Of a DNA stretch of 28,223 nucleotides, positions 9,855 through 28,223 are shown one piece after another. The translations under genes and the position numbers were made by a program. The stretch covers positions 1 to 28,223 of IMG/VR virus record IMGVR_UViG_3300033142_001985; one strand, given 5' to 3'. How positions within the stretch are numbered: the first letter of the stretch is position 1; the number at the start of each line of letters is the position of its first letter. The notes below the pieces were generated by a model that saw only the letters and a list, made by a program, of their open reading frames with translations, had not been told where the DNA came from and made no database searches. The DNA is from a virus.

Positions 9855-10106
9855 ATGAGCGATTTAATATCAGAAAAGATTTTTTTATCAGATACAAGTT
9901 GGTTACCCATTTTAGTTGATGAAACTGCTACGATTATGCCCACAGCACATAAAGGCGTTGAAATTCGCATTGGCTTGAATGATGAAGCCAGCACGATTCC
10001 TTTTCCAGTTGAGGGCATCACATTTAATCACCCTGTAACCCTTTGGGCGAAGGGTAGAAAAACTGAATTTGGCGGCTCAGTGCTTGGAGTAATAAAAAAT
10101 GATTAA
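9855..10106 (+). CDS. Small hypothetical tail-region protein
   Basis: An 83-aa protein without a family I recognise. It has a good AAAAAGGAAG ribosome site. Alternating hydrophobic residues (LPILVDETATIMP, VEIRIGLND, VTLWAKGRKTEFGGSVLGVI) suggest a small beta-rich fold of the type seen in phage virion decoration or fibre-associated proteins. It overlaps the 957-aa gene by 8 nt, so the two are probably made together and may assemble together. Confidence 0.6.
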   Translation: MSDLISEKIFLSDTSWLPILVDETATIMPTAHKGVEIRIGLNDEASTIPFPVEGITFNHPVTLWAKGRKTEFGGSVLGVIKND

Positions 10107-12972
10107 TGTTAATGGCGATATGTCATCTGATATTGATCAAAATACTACTGATATTGCAGTAATTCAAGACACTTTAGATGCTCATCTTCATAAAACTTTA
10201 TTAGATTTATCTTTCCCTTTCGATGCACACACCATTTCCGCTGAAGCTGGCGATATTCCAGATTTTGCGGCGGCAGGTTGGGTAGCAAATAAACCTGAAA
10301 TCGTTAAAACAACGTATCAGGGGCTTGATGTTTTTGTTTTCCCTGGCACCAATTCGCCAGAAACGGGTAATTTTATTCTTGAAAAACACCTTGCCCTGCA
10401 AGATTTTCAAAATTTGCATTCTTTCGGCGGCGTGTTTGGTGGCGAAGTGGCATTAGATGCCGACCTCGGCGAATTGGGTTTTTTTGCGTCGTATGAACTA
10501 AATATTGGCACGCAGATTTTACAAGCAGATGGCATTACGCCTGTGTTTACTGCAAATTATAAAAGATTTGGCTTGTTTTTTCAGCACGATAATACAAATG
10601 TCACTTTAATTGCTTCGGGCGGCGTAACGGGTTTGATTTTTAATGGCGTTGATACTGCTAGCGTTACAGATTGGCAGGGCAATACTGTTATTAATATCGT
10701 GCCAGAAATTTTACCAGGTGAATTTTTTAAATTTGAAATTCACATTAGAGATGGGCTGGATAAACCCGCTTTTTTATATGTCAATGATATTTTAGTAGGC
10801 AATCCAACCATCACGGCAGGCCGTGGATTTAATACTGTCATTTATGAAGGCGGCTCAGCTACAGGCACTCTCAGATATACGTACGTTCGAAATTTTGGCG
10901 ATACAATTAACACATCTGAAAATGTCGTTATTGCTAATAAGGCTGATTTAGAAAATAGCCGTGGCGTTAAGATTGTTATCCCAAATGGTACTCGTGATTA
11001 TTCTATTTTGCTCGAAAAAGACTTGCATTTGCCTGTTGGTTTCACTTACGAAATCATCTCGCAAACAATCGGAACTCTTGCTTGGAGCCCCAAAGGCACC
11101 TGCTCTAACACTTCTCATATTGCCCAATTCAGTTGCGAAAAATTAAAAGAAACTTGGGATGAAACCTCTTTTTGTGAAATTAACACTATAACTGATCAAA
11201 CGATCTGTGATACCGGCTCGCCAGGACTTTGGGATCCAATTAAGGGGGTTTGCGTCATACCATCGACTGAGTCCGACTGTGCGAGTAGCGGATATCTTTG
11301 GCATGATGGTTGGTGTAGCGATGGCGAATCTAGCAACAAAGAAACTTGCGAATTGAAACCGATCAATGATTGGAATGACGATAATAACGGCATTGCTGGC
11401 ACGATTGAAGGGTTTTCAAGTGGCAAAACAGAATTAAAAGGACTGATGGAAATCGTCAAAACAAATATTTTAAAAGATGGTGCTCAATTCGTCGCTAAAA
11501 CCACATTAACTGAATTTGAATCGCTTAGAACGGGCATGATTTCATACTCAGGCATGAGTCTGCTTGTTGTTGACGGTTTGACTGTTGTTTTTAGCGCAAG
11601 AATGATGCGTTTTGTCAATGAAGTAAGGGGCTCGTCTACTATTGTCACTCGTCCAAGTGTTGAATTTGAATTTACCGAAGGCTTGCAAGCGTCTGATGAT
11701 TTGGGTGTTGTGCATTTTTACGAAGCAGTTGACGGCACCATTTTTGGCTCAGCAAAAACGGACTGGTCAACCCCAATCCAAAGACGAGATTACGCATATT
11801 TAGGCAATGCAGATGTGAATTTGAGTAAAAATGGCTTTGTTCAAGCGAATAATCCGCTTGTGTCAGCCTTTGGTTTGCTCAATGCGTTTGGCGATTATTT
11901 GGCGATTGGTGGTAGCATTAAAAGTGCGGGCGGTAAAGTTATTAATTTTTCAACTAATTTAGCATTAAATATCTCAGGTTACACAGCAGTCGCCTGGGGC
12001 AGAAACTTTAGCAATAGAGCAATGCCCCACACACCAACTTCAACTGACATTTTCAATGCAGATTTACATTTAGGTTATAGAAATTCTGATGTTTCGATGG
12101 TTTTCGGTGCATCGAGTAAAAACCTTAATCCAACCGCTTACCAAAAAATTGAAAATACTAATTTATCCACCGTTCCAGCTGGAAAATTCACAATTCAAAG
12201 GGCTTTCCAATACCCTGGGACTGATTATAATATGATTTTGTTTGGGAGCACTCTTTACGATTCGTTAGACCAAGCGATTTTAAATGCTTCAACTGAGCGT
12301 TATAATCTGCACCCCTCTCTTGTACCAGCCTGCTTTTTGGCTTATATTGTTGTCAAACAAGATGTCACTGATTTAGACGATGCTATTCATAACACCAAAA
12401 CGGCGGCGATACTAAACTACAACGGCCGCACGCATCCCCCAACTATTGGGGCAGAGGAAAGCCCTTCGCTCTCGCTGGAGGCAGGCGGTGAGTTGCGTTC
12501 GATGGTTGATCAATACGCAAATGATATTACTGATCCCATTATTTTTGTTGATTTTGAAATTGGCGAAAATTCACTTTATGGTTGCGAATGGAGCTCAGTA
12601 AGTAAATCAATCAAAAACACTTCGCAAAAAGATATGGTTGTAAATATTGTGCCCCAGGTCGGACGACGAAGCACAGGGCAGAGCGTTGGTTTAGAGATAT
12701 TTATTGATATTTCGTATGATAATGGTGCTAATTATAATGTTGATATTGCAGATACTTATGCGACTTATCAATCAATTGAGGCGCAAATTGGCTCATTAAC
12801 TGCTAGCGTTTTAATCTTTAGAGTTGTACCAAACGCGCAAGTCAGAATCGGCATGATGTTAAGCAATGATGAAACTGAGGTAGGATTAATATCAAATGGC
12901 AAGGGTAATCCAAATCCTGGCGCTTCATTAAGCGGTAGACATCTACCATCTTGCATATTAACCGTTACCTAA
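10099..12972 (+). CDS. Large tail-associated protein with Cys-rich insertion (probable host-recognition or fibre protein)
   Basis: A 957-aa protein, the largest in the window, not matched to a family. The first 35 residues contain a short helix (IDQNTTDIAVIQDTLDAHLHK) as in fibre N-termini; the rest is rich in Gly, Asn, Thr and beta-type alternation, as in fibre and receptor-binding proteins. Residues 335-417 hold eight cysteines (335, 346, 359, 370, 385, 394, 406, 417) in a repeated C-x(5-7)-W-x(4-6)-C-x(8-10)-C pattern, which is unusual for a protein assembled in the cytoplasm and suggests a disulfide-bonded or metal-binding domain exposed on the virion. It lies downstream of the fibre genes and upstream of lysis genes. 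Function is inferred from size, composition and place. Confidence 0.65.
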   Translation: MINVNGDMSSDIDQNTTDIAVIQDTLDAHLHKTLLDLSFPFDAHTISAEAGDIPDFAAAGWVANKPEIVKTTYQGLDVFVFPGTNSPETGNFILEKHLALQDFQNLHSFGGVFGGEVALDADLGELGFFASYELNIGTQILQADGITPVFTANYKRFGLFFQHDNTNVTLIASGGVTGLIFNGVDTASVTDWQGNTVINIVPEILPGEFFKFEIHIRDGLDKPAFLYVNDILVGNPTITAGRGFNTVIYEGGSATGTLRYTYVRNFGDTINTSENVVIANKADLENSRGVKIVIPNGTRDYSILLEKDLHLPVGFTYEIISQTIGTLAWSPKGTCSNTSHIAQFSCEKLKETWDETSFCEINTITDQTICDTGSPGLWDPIKGVCVIPSTESDCASSGYLWHDGWCSDGESSNKETCELKPINDWNDDNNGIAGTIEGFSSGKTELKGLMEIVKTNILKDGAQFVAKTTLTEFESLRTGMISYSGMSLLVVDGLTVVFSARMMRFVNEVRGSSTIVTRPSVEFEFTEGLQASDDLGVVHFYEAVDGTIFGSAKTDWSTPIQRRDYAYLGNADVNLSKNGFVQANNPLVSAFGLLNAFGDYLAIGGSIKSAGGKVINFSTNLALNISGYTAVAWGRNFSNRAMPHTPTSTDIFNADLHLGYRNSDVSMVFGASSKNLNPTAYQKIENTNLSTVPAGKFTIQRAFQYPGTDYNMILFGSTLYDSLDQAILNASTERYNLHPSLVPACFLAYIVVKQDVTDLDDAIHNTKTAAILNYNGRTHPPTIGAEESPSLSLEAGGELRSMVDQYANDITDPIIFVDFEIGENSLYGCEWSSVSKSIKNTSQKDMVVNIVPQVGRRSTGQSVGLEIFIDISYDNGANYNVDIADTYATYQSIEAQIGSLTASVLIFRVVPNAQVRIGMMLSNDETEVGLISNGKGNPNPGASLSGRHLPSCILTVT

Positions 12973-15267: not shown

Positions 15268-15357
15268 AAAAAAGCAAGAATGGGAATATCAAAAAGACCT
15301 CGACACAAGAGAGCTTTACAATTATTTTCATATTTAAATTTATATTCTTAGGAATAA

Positions 15358-20739: not shown

Positions 20740-20771
20740 TTCTTTTTAAAACCTTTCTTTTTATTTGTCAA

Positions 20772-20809
20772 TTACAACTATTTTAAAATTTGTTTTAAAA
20801 TAGTTGTAA
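20772..20809. other. 17-bp perfect AT-rich hairpin after the tape measure gene
   Basis: Arms 20772-20788 and 20793-20809 pair perfectly around the loop TTTG. Neither strand has the T run of an intrinsic terminator directly after it. It sits in the 248-bp gap between the last structural gene and the first accessory cassette, so it may end or process the late transcript, or be a protein-binding site. A weaker 7-bp hairpin lies at 20840-20858 (ATGAATT/AATTCAT), upstream of a TCGCTTTTTTT run. Confidence 0.55.
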
Positions 20810-20880
20810 AACGTCGTAAAAAGACGTATAATTCTTTACATGAATTAAATAAATTCATCTGAATAGTCGCTTTTTTTATT

Positions 20881-20987
20881 TATTTTCAAAAATAATTAAA
20901 TAAATGCTTGACTTATGTAATAATTGTTGTATAATGTACTCATCTAAAGCAATAACGCATTAGATAAACAAAAAATGGAGTTTTAAA
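20881..20987 (+). promoter_or_regulatory. Promoter-leader cassette, copy 1
   Basis: Near-consensus sigma-70 promoter: TTGACT at 20908-20913, 16-bp spacer, TATAAT at 20930-20935, with an AT-rich upstream stretch. The leader has a 6-bp inverted repeat ATCTAA (20942-20947)/TTAGAT (20960-20965) and ends with GGAG 7 nt before the ATG at 20988. Almost identical 107-109-bp cassettes lie at 27454-27560 and 27888-27996. Confidence 0.88.
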
Positions 20988-21236
20988 ATGATAGACGAGA
21001 ACAATAATGAAATCGAGGAAATGTCAATTCAGCAAGTAACAGCACAACTATTTAGAACAGTTGATCGCATGGGTCTTGCTAAGAATCACCAAGAAAAATT
21101 AATCACACTTTTAACGACTCTGGAGATAGCAGTCAACAAAGCAAGAGATGACAATCATAGCAAGATTAAAGAAATAGCAGACATCTTGCAAGAGTCTGTC
21201 ATTAAAGACTTTAAACAATACAATTCAAAAGTTTAA
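20988..21236 (+). CDS. Small cassette protein, paralogue A
   Basis: An 82-aa charged, helical protein of no family I recognise. It shares its first 16 residues (M-x-DENNNEIEEMSIQQ), a central EKL-x2-L segment, an AVNKA motif and an ILQE ... KQYN end with the 81-aa product at 27561, so the two are paralogues with diverged middles. It has its own strong promoter and a terminator behind it (21256-21287), making a self-contained expression unit. Small independently expressed phage proteins of this sort are often host-takeover or anti-defence factors, but nothing in the sequence shows which. Confidence 0.75.
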   Translation: MIDENNNEIEEMSIQQVTAQLFRTVDRMGLAKNHQEKLITLLTTLEIAVNKARDDNHSKIKEIADILQESVIKDFKQYNSKV

Positions 21237-21255
21237 AAAAAAGTACAAGGGCTTG

Positions 21256-21287
21256 GCGACTTAACCATAAAAATGAAGTCGCTTTTT
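21256..21287 (+). terminator. Intrinsic terminator after paralogue A
   Basis: Stem GCGACTT (21256-21262) pairs with AAGTCGC (21276-21282) around a 13-nt loop and is followed by TTTTT (21283-21287). Confidence 0.75.
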
Positions 21288-21305
21288 ATATCAAACTACA
21301 TAATC

Positions 21306-21641
21306 ATGACAAAAAATCAATTAAGAACATTGAGTGGCGGCGAATGGGTCGTGAGCAAAATTACTGGAAAAATATTTAATTTCTGCGGTTATTACAAAAA
21401 TTCAACACTTGTGGGCATTAAAAATCGGCGCACAAAAGAATGGAGTTTGATACCCAAAAGAATTTTTTTACAAAAATATCGAGCCAAATTCTACAGCAGT
21501 TCCGACCTTGTAAAATTCCCTTTAAAAAATCAAGACGTAATAGATTATTTAGAAATAAACACAGAGACAAAAGAGAAGGTAATTACATTCCCTTTAAAAA
21601 ATCAAGCTGTGATAGATTATTTAGAAAAGTCCCCAGCGTGA
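21306..21641 (+). CDS. Hypothetical protein with duplicated C-terminal motif
   Basis: A 111-aa basic protein started at 21306; an earlier in-frame ATG at 21273 lies inside the terminator stem-loop and is less likely. The N-terminal part (NQLRTLSGGEW ... EWSLIPKRIFLQKYRAKF) shows a weak, spaced resemblance to the partial protein at the right end of the window (NQELKTITKG ... WITSRLYKNVFLERWSFK). The end has two copies of FPLKNQ-x-VIDYLE, 24 residues apart, from a 72-bp direct repeat. Function unknown; it may bind DNA or another phage protein through the repeated motif. Confidence 0.6.
   Translation: MTKNQLRTLSGGEWVVSKITGKIFNFCGYYKNSTLVGIKNRRTKEWSLIPKRIFLQKYRAKFYSSSDLVKFPLKNQDVIDYLEINTETKEKVITFPLKNQAVIDYLEKSPA
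21515..21627 (+). repeat. Direct repeat of about 41 bp, period 72 bp
   Basis: Copies at 21515-21555 and 21587-21627 differ at only a few positions. Both encode FPLKNQ-x-VIDYLE in frame. The 31 bp between them is different in character and encodes a charged linker. Confidence 0.85.
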
Positions 21642-21838
21642 GTAATGTGGCTAACGAAGCTCATAACTTATTGATAGTATTTGATGTAGAGTTAGTTTCT
21701 GCTACAGACACTGACGCAGTTCTAAAAGTTGTTAGAGATCTATTAGAAGCGCACGCAAGAAAGGAGTTTGGTTTTTCAAGTCTTGCTCATCCAACGCGAT
21801 TACGTGTTAAGCATTTAAGTAGTCAAAAAAAAGGATAA
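21638..21838 (+). CDS. Small hypothetical protein (GTG start)
   Basis: A 66-aa protein starting at the GTG of a GTGA overlap with the preceding stop. The same frame is open further upstream to 21440, but that part overlaps the previous gene and is low-complexity basic, so it is a shadow. The body, LLIVFDVELVSATDTDAVLKVVRDLLEAHARKEFGFSSL, has a strand followed by an amphipathic helix and could be a small alpha/beta fold. No family recognised. The next gene begins after 3 bp. Confidence 0.55.
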   Translation: MSNVANEAHNLLIVFDVELVSATDTDAVLKVVRDLLEAHARKEFGFSSLAHPTRLRVKHLSSQKKG

Positions 21839-21841
21839 ATT

Positions 21842-22066
21842 ATGACAAAAAAAGACTTAATTAAAGCATTAGAAAAATATGAGGATGACGCATTGGTCAT
21901 TGTTGATGTGTTCAATAAACATCACTCAATTGCCTTAACGCCCAGTTCTATATCTACTAACTGTTTGGCTTTGAGTATTCAAATTAGTGCAGAAGAAACG
22001 GAAAAAGTTAGACTTTTATTTGAACAAGTCAGAAAAGACAATGAAATTACAGAGGTAAAAAAATGA
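21842..22066 (+). CDS. Small hypothetical phage protein
   Basis: A 74-aa protein with an AAAAAAGGA ribosome site. The N-terminal segment KKDLIKALEKYEDDALVIVDVF (a helix leading into an acidic strand) is a pattern seen in small phage proteins of unknown role. The rest alternates a strand (CLALSIQIS) and a helix. It overlaps the next gene by 4 nt (ATGA), so the two are probably cotranslated. Confidence 0.65.
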   Translation: MTKKDLIKALEKYEDDALVIVDVFNKHHSIALTPSSISTNCLALSIQISAEETEKVRLLFEQVRKDNEITEVKK

Positions 22067-22290
22067 AGGAATCAGAAGCAATTAATATGGTTAAGAATTT
22101 GCCAGAGGTCAAGGCCAATATTTACGCCTTGGCTTTTGGATTTTCAAATAAAAAAGTAAATGAACTTTGTTCTAACAAAAAAATTCCTTGCCGAAAAATT
22201 GGGCAAGCAAAAACACGCACCAAAGACAACAGAACCTGGATGGTGAATATGATAAAAGTAAGAGCAGAATTGGGAAAAAATAGTGAATGA
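22063..22290 (+). CDS. Small HTH-type DNA-binding protein (excisionase-like)
   Basis: A 75-aa protein whose central part reads as a winged-helix of the excisionase/MerR type: ALAFGFSNKKVNELCSNKKIPCRKIG, where the second helix is followed by the short wing IPCRKIG, then RTWMVNMIKV as the closing strand and helix. The layout matches small factors that bind DNA for excision or transcription control. No integrase lies nearby, so a regulator of the replication operon is as likely. The stop overlaps the next start by 8 nt. Confidence 0.55.
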   Translation: MKESEAINMVKNLPEVKANIYALAFGFSNKKVNELCSNKKIPCRKIGQAKTRTKDNRTWMVNMIKVRAELGKNSE

Positions 22291-22540
22291 TCTTAGCTTG
22301 CTTATATTAATGTGCGGCTCTCAATTCGCCCTTGTTTTTTTTAAGCATCTCAATGTTCGAGTGATTATCACTGAAAACGCTTTAAACACTGTTTTTATCA
22401 CATTTTTAATTCAAGCAACTTGGTTAATCAGCGTGGCAATTGGCATAAAAGCAGTTTGGGCAGGCAATGTGATGATGATTGTGGCTTATTTATCATCAGG
22501 AATGCTGGGTGCATATTTCAGTTTCAGAGTAAAAGTATGA
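22283..22540 (+). CDS. Small membrane protein
   Basis: An 85-aa protein with three hydrophobic segments: about 4-22 (LSLLILMCGSQFALVFF), 35-55 (LNTVFITFLIQATWLISVAIG) and 58-79 (AVWAGNVMMIVAYLSSGMLGAYF). Basic residues sit between the first two (KHLNVR). It overlaps the primase-helicase start by 4 nt (ATGA), tying it to the replication gene. Small membrane proteins in this position may anchor replication or alter the host membrane (for example superinfection exclusion), but no family was recognised. Confidence 0.6.
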   Translation: MNDLSLLILMCGSQFALVFFKHLNVRVIITENALNTVFITFLIQATWLISVAIGIKAVWAGNVMMIVAYLSSGMLGAYFSFRVKV

Positions 22541-25212
22541 ACACACAACGCATTGAGCAAATCAAAAAAAGCAACTCTTTAAAAGACGTAGTCGCTGATT
22601 TCGGCATCACGCTGAAGGCAAAAAGAGGCAAGTGCCCGTTTTGAGATAATGGCACTGGGGCATTTAGTGTTAATGATGATTATTATAAATGCTTTAAATG
22701 CGATGCCAAGGGTGATGTCGTTGAGTTTGTCAAGCAAACTCAAAACTTAGATTTTGTAAGTGCAATGAAACAACTGGGCAATAGAGCTGGCATATCGACT
22801 GAAGAATCTATTACTAAAATGGCTGGCAATGAGCCCAAAGCGGCGGCAGAAATGTATCTTGAGTCTGAGCGACAATTAACGATCCCAAAAAATTGGTACA
22901 CACAAGAAACTTTTGGCTACGGCAATACGCAATCCGCCACGGTGCGATTTCAAATTGGGGATACGTTTTGGGAGCGCATTATTGATGCGCATTTGTTTAC
23001 TCATAAAGCGCATTTCAAAAAAGGCGGAACGTACAAGGGCGAATCTTGGCAACCACCAACGCAGCGCATTTGCAAAAATGATAAGGTTTATATCACAGAA
23101 GGCATTTTTGACGCGATCGCTATCATGCTTGCTTTCAAGCACAAGGTCGCTAGTGCTATGAGCACTAGCAATTTTCCAAAAAAATTGATTGAAAAATACA
23201 AGGGAAAAAATATCACTTGGTGTTTAATGTTAGATTTTGGCGATGCTGGCAGTGTTGCTGCCAAAAAATGGACGTCAATACTTCGTAAAATGAATGAAAA
23301 AGTTGAGGTTTATTATCCAAGTGACACAAAAGATTGGAACGATTTATATCGTTCAAAAATGCTCACAGATGATTTATTAAAAAAATATTGGTGGCGTGGT
23401 CAAATTTTAGTCGCTCAATCTGTTGCTGAAAAAATGGCATGGTTAATCATAAAAGCGAAAGTGGCTAAATTGTTCGTGCCAATGCTTAAAGTTTTAACAT
23501 TTAATCATTGCTATTTTAATTGCAAAATAATCAAAGATTCAGAGGACACCAAATCTTTAAATGATTTCATTGAAAATAATCAATATTTTGAGGCTGTAAA
23601 TGTTATAAAGACGCTTGTTCGAAGTGTGCGAATATCAACCGCAACTGCTCAACTGCTTTACACGCAAATTGATAATGTTGATCAAACTTACTCTTATTAT
23701 TTTGACATCGCCATGCTCGATGTTAAAAAGCATAAAAAAGTAGCGTTTGATTCTAATATGATTGTTGACGCTAATTCTTTTAATCTAGCACTTTTAAAAC
23801 GAGTGGGGCAGTCTACCTTCAGCGGCGAAGGCAAAGACATGCGTCAAATTTTAGACGGTTGGTTTGTCAATCGCAAACCCACGATTGAAACTATACGACA
23901 CATGGGCTATAGCCCTATTCACAAGGCTTATGTTTTTGAAAATTTTGGTTATAAAGACGGGCGCTTGGTCAAAACCAACAAGCACGATTATTTAAATATG
24001 GGCAATTTTTCACTCAAAACAACATTTATTGGTTGGAAAATTCCAAACCCTGATGACAAAAAATCGCCCTGGTTCGATGATTTTTTTCTGGCAGGCGGCA
24101 ACACAGCACTAACGGGCTTGGCGTTTTGGCTAATGAGTCTTTTTGCATCGCAAATAAGAGAAAAAGACAACCAAGGCACAATCCCATTTTTCGAATACAC
24201 GGGCGTTGCACACTCTGGAAAATCAACAATTATTGAATTTTTGTGGAAGCTGATTGGTCGTGATGGTTTTGAAGGAGAAGACCCCGAAAAACACACAAAA
24301 ACATCATTAGCTCGCTACTTAATGCAAGCCTCAAATATTCCAGCTGTTTTGCTAGAAGGCGATCGCGCAGCAGATGGTCATCGTCAAAAAAAATTCTCGA
24401 TGGATCAAATAAAAACCATGTTTAGAGGTCAGAGCCCCTACGGGCGCGGCATCAGAAATAACGGCATTGATATTGATAACGTGCCATTTTTGGGTACATT
24501 AGTCATCAGCCAAAACGCACAAATCGAAGGCGAGCCACAAATTTTAAGCAGAATTGTACAGTGCATTGCAACTAAAGCCGATTTTTCTAATGAAGGTTTG
24601 GCCGCAGCTAATCGCTTAAAGCGATTAAACGGCGAGCAAGTCATCCATTTTTTGCACGCAGCTTTGAGTCAAGAAAAAGTAATAATGGATACTTACAGCA
24701 CTTGGTTTAAAAAATATAAGCAGTTTTTATTTAAAAGCAACAAGATATTTGATGCACGCATCGCTGAAAATCATGCGCAATTAATGGCGTTTGGTAAATG
24801 TTTGCAATTAATCGTGCCAGAATTTGACGCTCTTCGCTTGAAAAATTGGCTCAATTTTATTGTTAATTTAGCTGAGAAGCGACAGATTGCTTGTCAATCA
24901 GATTCTGCTTTAGTGAACAGATTCTGGGAAATTTACGAGACTTTTAATGAAAAAATTGGCGCTAGTGATACAGATGCAATTTTGGGTTATGCAGCAACAG
25001 AACAACTCATTAATCACTCAAAAGACCCTGATTTAATCGCTATTAATCTACCACTTTTTAAAAAAATAGCGGAAGAAAACAGGCAACAGATTGATGTTGA
25101 TGCAATGAAAGCATTGTTGGTAAATTCAAAACGTTACAAGTTTTTAAAACAAAAAAAGATCGGCAGCGCAATCTTGGGAAAAGTGTTGCACTGTTGGATT
25201 TTCAAAAAATAA
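22537..25212 (+). CDS. Primase-helicase with in-frame TGA at codon 36 (CHC2-type zinc finger, TOPRIM, ATPase)
   Basis: The full frame is 892 codons including the stop, but codon 36 is TGA (22642-22644). Residues 20-70 form a primase zinc finger: KCPF gives Cys33, the TGA takes the second ligand place (C-x2-X), and KCFKC gives Cys52 and Cys55, followed by GDVVEFV. Residues about 184-240 are TOPRIM-like: ITEGIFD with Glu188 and LDFGDAG with Asp233/Asp236. A P-loop GVAHSGKST lies at 556-564 and LLEGD at 605-609, giving a helicase ATPase. The stretch after the TGA is clearly coding. If TGA stops translation, a product from the ATG at 22765 (815 aa) would lack the zinc finger. The start overlaps the previous gene as ATGA. 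The lesion may be a nonsense mutation, a sequence error, or a recoded codon. Confidence 0.82.
22642..22644 (+). other. In-frame TGA at a zinc-ligand codon
   Basis: TGA lies between CPF and DNG, where family members carry Cys or His. TGA serves as a normal stop elsewhere in the window (for example after the methyltransferase), so a reassigned genetic code is not supported. A possible 6-bp stem GGCACT (22651-22656)/AGTGTT (22666-22671) follows, with two G-U pairs and a 9-nt loop. Confidence 0.9.
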
Positions 25213-25490: not shown

Positions 25491-25679
25491 ATGAACGGAA
25501 AAAAAGCAAAAATACTCAGAAAGCGCGCTGAAACAAAAAAAATAGGCACTGCTACAGAATACCAATATCATAAAAAAAGTATTTATGAGAGAGAAGGCAC
25601 TAAATATTGTGGAACAAAAGAATTGAAAAAATGCACTAGAAAGACTTATAAACAACTCAAAAAAGGAGAAACAATATGA
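25491..25679 (+). CDS. Small basic phage protein
   Basis: A 62-aa highly basic protein (KKAKILRKRAETKK at the start, RKTYKQLKKGE at the end) with AAGGAG upstream. Proteins of this kind, with an N-terminal K/R-rich helix and a C-terminal Y-x-x-LKK, are common and uncharacterised in phages; nucleic-acid binding is likely from charge alone. Its last codons contain the AAAAGGAG that serves the next gene, which it overlaps as ATGA. Confidence 0.65.
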   Translation: MNGKKAKILRKRAETKKIGTATEYQYHKKSIYEREGTKYCGTKELKKCTRKTYKQLKKGETI

Positions 25680-27433
25680 GCAAAATACATAAATCGTCTG
25701 TAAAAGAATTAAAAAAAGTTAATGAATTAAACGACAAAATAGTTATAGAAACAAATTTCCAAGGCTCAAAGCGTGTATACACAAAAGAAGGAGTCACGTA
25801 TATACTCAATCTAAATGAGAACGAAATGCTTACATTAGATGAGCTAGATAAGTTAGACATCAAGAACATAGATGATGACTTATATATCTATTTGCCTAAC
25901 AGCAAAATTATAATATTTGTTGACTTTTATATTATTTATGAGACTCAATTATCTTGCAATATTGCACTATTCAGCACAGATAATGACTATTATTATTGCA
26001 TAGAGCCTTCAGATGAAGCGTTTGCATTTAATCCATTTTTTGCCTTGCCTTTGGCATTAATGGGTGGTGGTGGTGGAGACGAAAACAATGGATTGTTTGA
26101 TTATGAAAGTGCTTTACGAAGCAAACCCGAAGCCACAAACAAGCCAAAAAACACAAATGATGGCGCTTCTGCTAACCCTTCTAACCCTGTTGAACCTAAC
26201 CCACAACCTGAGCCACAACCTAACCCACAACCTAACCCACAACCTGAGCCACAACCTGAGCCACAACCTAACCCACAACCTAACCCACAACCTGAGCCAC
26301 AACCTGAGCCCGATTTAAATAACGCACCAATTCTTGTTAATCTTATTTTCAATCAAAATGCTTTATTGAACGCAGATTTCAGTTTCCAATTTTCTGAAAA
26401 TGCTTTTAATGATCCTGATGGCGACGCCCTCACTTACACAGCCACCCTAGAGAGTGGGGGTGCTCTGCCTGCTTGGCTTGTATTTGACCCCATCACCAGA
26501 ACATTTAGCGGCAAACCCACAGTGCTCAACTCGCTAAATGTGCGAGTTACCGCATCTGATGGCATTGCTTATGCTTCTGATGATTTCAAAATAACAACTT
26601 ACGACAACACAGAATATGAAAAAGAGGAATATCAAAAAGAGATTGTGGGTGACGGAAGCAATTCAGCCCCAGTGCGTGGGCCAGATGTCATTCGTTTAGA
26701 TTTTACAGAAGGGCGTGTGGATTCGTACGATCTAACTAGCTATTTTAGCGATGCTGATGGCGACATTTTGACTTATGAATTTGAAGGATCTTCAAGGTAT
26801 AGAAACTGGCTAAAACTAAGTGATCATGGTCAAATTAGCGTTCCTTTTCCAATCCGCATGGAAAGCCCTAGCGACTATAATTCTAATACGAAAAACGGGA
26901 AAATTAAGATGTCTGTAAATGATGGCAACGGCGGTGAGGTAGTTGTTTATGTCAATCTTACAATAGAAGCAAAAGCAACTTACACAGCACCCGTTTTTGA
27001 TTACACAAATCCCAATATTATCAAGAATGACGCGTACGATGCTTTGCAAAATGATCGTCATAAAATAATTGGACATGTTGAAGAGGCATCAAAAGGAAGC
27101 TTTGATTTATCTGATTATTTTCAAAACGAAGACTCGAGCAATAATAAAGCTATTACATTTGATAATTTAGCAATGTACGACGGCTCAGAAGTACCATTTT
27201 GGCTAGACTTGGCAACTGATGGCACGCTTAGCGTTGATTTAAATATCAGAGGCTCAGGCAGAAGTAGCGTTGAAATGCAAGCAATTAGAGACATCACAAC
27301 ACAGGGCGAAATCAGATCATTTTCTATTACTGCAGAAGCAACAAACGGCCCGCCAGGGCCGCACTCAGGAACAAATGGCGGCATATTTCATTTTCTTGTT
27401 TACAATTACCAAATGGATTCTTATATTTTATAA
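25676..27433 (+). CDS. Adhesin-like surface protein with Pro-rich linker and cadherin/Ig-type domains
   Basis: A 585-aa protein. The N-terminal domain (1-128) has a strand-rich part with LPNSKIIIFVDFYIIYE and ends with FFALPLALM followed by five glycines (130-134), similar to the retention/prefix part of large type I-secreted adhesins. A Pro-rich linker of ten PNPQ/PEPQ units spans about 174-212. Then come three cadherin-like or Ig-like domains: about 220-305 (DPDGDALTYTATLESGGALPAWLVFDPITRTFSGKPT, a dystroglycan-type cadherin signature), about 335-430 (SYFSDADGDILTYEF) and about 460-555 (SDYFQNEDSSNNKAITFD ... PFWLDLATDGTLSV). No signal peptide and no C-terminal RTX signal is seen. It may be a virion decoration protein or a bacterial adhesin fragment carried as cargo. 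Confidence 0.72.
   Translation: MSKIHKSSVKELKKVNELNDKIVIETNFQGSKRVYTKEGVTYILNLNENEMLTLDELDKLDIKNIDDDLYIYLPNSKIIIFVDFYIIYETQLSCNIALFSTDNDYYYCIEPSDEAFAFNPFFALPLALMGGGGGDENNGLFDYESALRSKPEATNKPKNTNDGASANPSNPVEPNPQPEPQPNPQPNPQPEPQPEPQPNPQPNPQPEPQPEPDLNNAPILVNLIFNQNALLNADFSFQFSENAFNDPDGDALTYTATLESGGALPAWLVFDPITRTFSGKPTVLNSLNVRVTASDGIAYASDDFKITTYDNTEYEKEEYQKEIVGDGSNSAPVRGPDVIRLDFTEGRVDSYDLTSYFSDADGDILTYEFEGSSRYRNWLKLSDHGQISVPFPIRMESPSDYNSNTKNGKIKMSVNDGNGGEVVVYVNLTIEAKATYTAPVFDYTNPNIIKNDAYDALQNDRHKIIGHVEEASKGSFDLSDYFQNEDSSNNKAITFDNLAMYDGSEVPFWLDLATDGTLSVDLNIRGSGRSSVEMQAIRDITTQGEIRSFSITAEATNGPPGPHSGTNGGIFHFLVYNYQMDSYIL
26195..26311 (+). repeat. 12-bp tandem repeat coding PNPQ/PEPQ units
   Basis: Ten units of CCTAACCCACAA or CCTGAGCCACAA in the order N, E, N, N, E, E, N, N, E, E. 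The paired alternation shows growth by 24- or 48-bp steps. Length changes would keep the frame. Confidence 0.93.
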
Positions 27434-27453
27434 AAAAAACACATTATTTAATG

Positions 27454-27560
27454 TATTTTCAAAAATAATTAAATAAATGCTTGACTTATGTAAGAATTGT
27501 TGTATAATGTACTCATCTAAAGCAATAACGCATTAGATAAACAAAAAATGGAGTTTCAAA
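27454..27560 (+). promoter_or_regulatory. Promoter-leader cassette, copy 2
   Basis: TTGACT at 27481-27486, 16-bp spacer, TATAAT at 27503-27508, followed by the same leader with ATCTAA/TTAGAT and GGAG. It differs from copy 1 at one spacer base and near the start codon. Confidence 0.88.
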
Positions 27561-27806
27561 ATGGTAGACGAGAATAACAATGAAATCGAGGAAATGTCAA
27601 TTCAACAAGGTTTGGGACAATTGCTTAATGTCATTAGCAACAATAATTCTATTAATGACAAAGAAAAATTAATGAGGCTTTGGCATATCATAGATACTGC
27701 TGTCAATAAAGCAGAAAAAGATCATCAAAAAAAGATGAGGGCTATTTCTCTCATCTTGCAAGAGCCAGTTGTTAGAAGTGCCAAACAATACAATCCAAAA
27801 AGTTAA
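27561..27806 (+). CDS. Small cassette protein, paralogue B
   Basis: An 81-aa helical protein paralogous to the 82-aa product at 20988. Start (M-x-DENNNEIEEMSIQQ), the KEKL motif, the A-VNKA segment and the ILQE-x-V ... KQYN end are kept, while the middle (GLGQLLNVISNNNSIND against VTAQLFRTVDRMGLAKN) has diverged. Such a pattern suggests selection for new specificity in the middle with fixed ends, or simple drift. Driven by cassette copy 2 and followed by a hairpin region like that of copy 1. Confidence 0.75.
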   Translation: MVDENNNEIEEMSIQQGLGQLLNVISNNNSINDKEKLMRLWHIIDTAVNKAEKDHQKKMRAISLILQEPVVRSAKQYNPKS

Positions 27807-27871: not shown

Positions 27872-27887
27872 ATCACATTAATTAACT

Positions 27888-27996
27888 TATTTTCAAAAAT
27901 AATTAAATAAATGCTTGACTTATGTAAGAATTGTTGTATAATGTACTCATCTAAAGTAATAACGCATTAGATAAACAAAAAATGGAGTTTTAAAAA
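27888..27996 (+). promoter_or_regulatory. Promoter-leader cassette, copy 3
   Basis: TTGACT at 27915-27920, 16-bp spacer, TATAAT at 27937-27942, same leader with two extra A residues before the ATG at 27997. It drives a gene that is not a paralogue of the 82-aa family. Confidence 0.88.
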
Positions 27997-28223
27997 ATGA
28001 ATAATCAAGAATTAAAAACAATAACAAAAGGCTCAAATATTTTAAATTTGTTTACAGGAGACAAGGGGATTTTTGTAAAAACTTATTTACAAGATGGGCG
28101 CGAAATGATGGAAATTTTAATCAGCACCACTGGCAATGGCTGGATAACATCTAGACTGTATAAGAACGTCTTTTTGGAAAGATGGAGCTTTAAAATGAAA
28201 AAATTAACAAAAAAACTAATAAA
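27997..28223 (+). CDS. Partial hypothetical protein, cut by window end
   Basis: Open from the ATG at 27997 to the right edge (75 codons seen, no stop), with GGAG upstream in cassette copy 3. The start NQELKTITKG and the WITSRLYKNVFLERWSFK segment show weak spaced similarity to the 111-aa protein at 21306 (NQLRTLSGG ... WSLIPKRIFLQKYRAKF). If real, the accessory region has two copies of a gene pair: the 82-aa family then this family. Alignment by eye only. Confidence 0.65.
   Translation, partial: MNNQELKTITKGSNILNLFTGDKGIFVKTYLQDGREMMEILISTTGNGWITSRLYKNVFLERWSFKMKKLTKKLI

Follow-up and report, generated by a model that had tools for sequence, protein, structure and literature searches.

An in-frame TGA at a zinc-ligand codon of a P2-like phage primase-helicase gene, very probably a recent mutation or a sequence error

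Introduction

We wondered how a TGA codon is to be read when it interrupts a phage primase-helicase gene precisely at a zinc ligand. The gene lies on the 28,223-base virus sequence IMGVR_UViG_3300033142_001985, all of which was analysed here and is referred to as the window. It is the record of a P2-like phage and carries genes for terminase, portal, capsid, protease, sheath and tape-measure proteins. A first-pass annotation, made from the letters of the window, had offered three options for the TGA: a nonsense mutation or sequence error, readthrough giving isoforms with and without the zinc finger, or selenocysteine (Sec) in place of cysteine.

Results

A TGA at the second zinc ligand of a DnaG-type ribbon

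The primase-helicase frame starts with an ATG at 22537 and ends with a TAA at 25210-25212, and the TGA at 22642-22644 is its sole internal stop (Table 1). When the TGA was read through, Pfam recognised a Zn_ribbon_DnaG (CHC2) domain in residues 3-90 (E 5e-15) as well as a Toprim domain. The PHROG 1139 DNA primase profile matched the read-through product at full length, spanning residues 24-891 (E 9e-161) and taking in zinc ribbon, Toprim and helicase. Judged by this similarity, both flanks of the TGA are homologous to primase, far above chance. The ribbon reads CPF-TGA-DNGTGAFSVNDDYYKCFKCDAKGD, a pattern of the CHC2/DnaG type (CPF-TGA-x15-CFKC). When it is aligned with 1d0q, a DnaG zinc domain of solved structure, codon 36 lies opposite zinc ligand 2, which in 1d0q is the His of CPFH. 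The frame, the Pfam and PHROG matches and the 1d0q alignment therefore confirm what had been read from the letters alone, namely an in-frame TGA at ligand 2 within a primase-helicase. The gene belongs to PHROG 1139 by descent and this copy is interrupted; four zinc ligands in sense codons are not present in it, ligand 2 being TGA. The Cys expected at this position is a structural zinc ligand and not a redox-active residue. An AlphaFold model of the zinc domain, computed from single-sequence input, reached a pLDDT of 48 and was discarded.

Table 1. Positions in the window of the interrupted primase-helicase gene and of features around its TGA codon.
Feature	Position	Strand	Remark
Primase-helicase frame, 891 codons, one internal TGA	22537..25212	+	P2-like primase family PHROG 1139
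Cys33, zinc ligand 1	22633..22635	+	Pairs with first Cys of CPFH in 1d0q; invariant Cys
In-frame TGA, codon 36, zinc ligand 2 of CHC2 ribbon	22642..22644	+	Cys in 83/83 homologues covering the site
Weak hairpin behind the TGA, with a GAUG loop 30 nt away	22656..22696	+	Not above background
Cys52-Phe-Lys-Cys55, zinc ligands 3 and 4	22690..22701	+	Pairs with CFGC of 1d0q
Longest conventional ORF after the TGA, 815 aa, start Met77, no Shine-Dalgarno; product would be without zinc ribbon	22765..25212	+	

Several other features of the window were recorded. An ORF of 957 residues following the tail genes (10099-12972) is without a PHROG match. Directly downstream of the primase gene, a 585-residue ORF (25676-27433) carries Ig-like (He_PIG) domains and a Pro-Gln-Pro-Glu/Asn repeat. 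A 166-base leader containing a TTGACT/TATAAT-like promoter is present in three copies (20871-21036, 27444-27609 and 27878-28043), the second and third sharing 77% and 95% identity with the first. Behind each copy lies a small ORF, of which the first two are alike at their start and then differ. Upstream of the primase gene (20740-22536), neither an integrase nor a repressor gene could be recognised, in contrast to the relative L009; the record may be incomplete.

Relatives carry cysteine at codon 36

We compared the site across 85 distinct homologues whose frames are long and open, drawn from a family scan of IMG/VR and from annotated phages. Two of them (L015 and L025) begin at contig ends past codon 36 and were left out of the site count, and each of the 83 usable homologues has Cys at this codon. 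A second scan, with patterns common to the window and its nearest relative, yielded the close records L009/L214 and L213, the only close primase relatives found. Their proteins are 68% identical to the window protein and 97% identical to each other, and both have TGT at codon 36. The first-pass annotation had named TGC or TGT in close relatives as an observation that would refute a special reading of the TGA, and it is TGT that L009 and L213 carry.

These comparisons bear on the possibility that the TGA is read as Sec by host SelA/B/C/D, in which case one Cys of the ribbon would be replaced by Sec as a structural zinc ligand. A TGA opposite an invariant Cys, with the protein conserved on both flanks, is what a selenoprotein gene would present, and Cys in the homologues is equally to be expected of a true Sec family, a point that counts against mutation or error. 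A second homologue with TGA, however, was not found among the matches listed. Among these matches, the IMG/VR pattern scans showed no other DnaG-type ribbon whose ligand 2 is TGA or TAA; the gapped scans covered the first ligand codon in its TGC spelling alone, and the reach of the patterns was partial. For other viral zinc ribbons with such a stop at this ligand, the listed matches were chance ones in unrelated frames. Retention of the TGA in at least one independent homologue, by which selenoproteins are recognised, was thus not seen within the limited reach of the collections and patterns.

Hairpins downstream of the TGA do not exceed the background

We explored the Sec reading further at the level of RNA folding. 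For bacterial SECIS elements, published limits place the apical loop 16-37 nt downstream of the TGA, with a G in the first two loop positions and an MFE <= -7.5 (PMC13188914). A weak hairpin with a G-starting GAUG loop (-11 kcal/mol on 56 nt) lies within the published spacing and MFE limit and so speaks for Sec, but 12% of the phage's ordinary codons satisfy the formal limits as well. Shuffling of a 60-nt stretch gave an equally good fold in 11 of 200 cases, about 5%. A lax version of the SECIS test, which recovers E. coli fdhF, was passed by 22% of ordinary codons, while 12% passed a strict one that fails to recover fdhF; that comparable tests are passed so often in the same phage argues against Sec. 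The hairpin that the first-pass annotation had described exists (-7.0 kcal/mol on 45 nt) and, as had been stated there, lies nearer than SECIS spacing, its loop being 14 nt after the TGA and outside 16-37 nt; on longer stretches, however, a different stem wins. Neither hairpin is unusual for this AT-rich sequence.

Further points stand against Sec. Codon 36 corresponds to a structural zinc ligand, and a search of the 28,223-base window found neither tRNA-Sec nor any other tRNA. A 2026 review that inventories prokaryotic selenoproteins does not contain the words primase, phage or virus in its main text. We therefore regard decoding as Sec as very unlikely. This estimate is a judgement and not a computed value; in it, the coincidence of the TGA with a ligand codon is set against the prior for Sec in the role of a phage zinc ligand, which is very low, and against the fact that the case was picked from a large scan.

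The segment behind the TGA has been conserved as protein

If the TGA terminates translation and only internal initiation follows, codons 37-76, the stretch from the TGA to the next in-frame ATG, remain untranslated. We analysed how this segment has diverged from L009 and L213 and counted 17-19 changes at third positions and 14-15 at first and second positions together. For the zinc-ribbon segment pN was 0.17-0.19 and pS 0.57-0.71, rough values with synonymous sites near saturation. For most of the divergence separating the window from these relatives, purifying selection clearly acted on codons 37-76 as protein. The predominance of third-position changes and a pN below pS indicate that the TGA has not been terminating for long, and a segment selected as protein implies that the TGA is young, is a sequencing error or is decoded. 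The primase gene was also inspected for excess decay, and 17 departures from family-conserved positions against 13 in the intact L009 gave no clear sign of it.

The same segment is informative about programmed truncation, in which the TGA would abolish the zinc-ribbon form and an internal start at Met77 would give a helicase-only protein. A zinc-free product of this kind is known as gp4B of T7, and the next in-frame ATG of the window gene does fall between the zinc ribbon and the Toprim/helicase part. Met77 is not preceded by a Shine-Dalgarno sequence, however, the wider family has Phe at position 77, and codons 37-76 are still conserved as protein. Programmed truncation is thus improbable, and a long-standing two-isoform arrangement with a zinc-free form is unlikely.

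Enough full-length primase might also arise from ordinary leakiness or suppression, with Trp or another residue inserted at the TGA. UGA is the leakiest stop codon in many bacteria. An inserted Trp, however, would not bind zinc and would leave the ribbon damaged, the window is without a suppressor tRNA, and TGA serves as terminator in other window genes (7 of the 25 ORFs counted). We consider this explanation extremely unlikely. With these TGA-terminated ORFs and with the other long genes open, a general reassignment of UGA in the phage was rejected as well.

Single-base nonsense changes in the lineage

The record of the closest relative (L092/G001) has stop or deletion sites at 15278-15280, 26189-26191 and about 26315. 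In place of the Gln codons CAA and CAG of the window, it carries TAA in its gene for the tail sheath and TAG in that for the terminase, so that single-base nonsense changes do arise in this lineage. A code change in this relative was considered for its internal TAA and TAG at Gln positions and was rejected in favour of prophage decay, the stops standing beside a terminase/portal deletion.

Two observations count against mutation or error in the window. The remaining window genes shared with this relative have no other disabling stop. A chance nonsense change on a zinc-ligand Cys is also a small coincidence: one-step nonsense routes hit the four zinc ligands in 4 of 402 cases in the whole gene and in 4 of 29 upstream of Met77. 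From this coincidence a special reading gains a factor of about 7 to 100.

Discussion

Taken together, the TGA very probably stems from one recent substitution that turned Cys into a stop, or else from a sequence error, and is private to this phage copy of an otherwise ordinary P2-like primase-helicase. This is favoured by Cys in 83 of 83 homologues and TGT in the two close relatives, by the single base that separates TGA from TGT or TGC, by the absence of a second TGA-bearing relative among the IMG/VR matches listed, and by the lack of a SECIS above background and of a tRNA in the window. We infer that the TGA in codon 36 is not decoded. At zinc ligand 2, a single-base change, or a sequencing or assembly error, would have put TGA in place of the Cys codon. 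Should the change be real, most ribosomes would halt after 35 residues, leaving the phage without primase-helicase or with a little N-truncated protein that lacks the zinc ribbon. From the options initially proposed for this site, nonsense mutation or error is thus the one retained, and for readthrough isoforms and selenocysteine no positive support was found.

The case serves mainly as a caution: a lone TGA at a Cys codon, known from one assembled record, argues weakly for recoding. Were the Sec reading true, a protein of viral replication would hold structural zinc with Sec, an unusual use of this residue, and phage replication would be linked to selenium.

The window primase matches the P2-like primase-helicases of PHROG 1139, among them those of Pseudomonas phages Dobby and phi3 and of Stenotrophomonas phage Smp131, over its full length. 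Its ribbon is nearer to the CHC2 DnaG pattern (CPFx...CFKC), whereas most relatives have CPxCGK ribbons, and the relatives have Cys at ligand 2 where the window copy has TGA. The primases of IMGVR_UViG_2751185563_000001 and IMGVR_UViG_3300021980_000085 have the same architecture and 68% identity over the full length; they are uninterrupted and have TGT at codon 36, in contrast to the TGA of the window copy. Dual products like gp4A/4B of T7 would call for an internal start with a ribosome binding site, and no Shine-Dalgarno sequence precedes Met77. With bacterial selenoproteins the window primase shares the in-frame TGA at a conserved Cys, but it differs from them in that the TGA does not recur, no SECIS stands above background and the residue is not redox-active.
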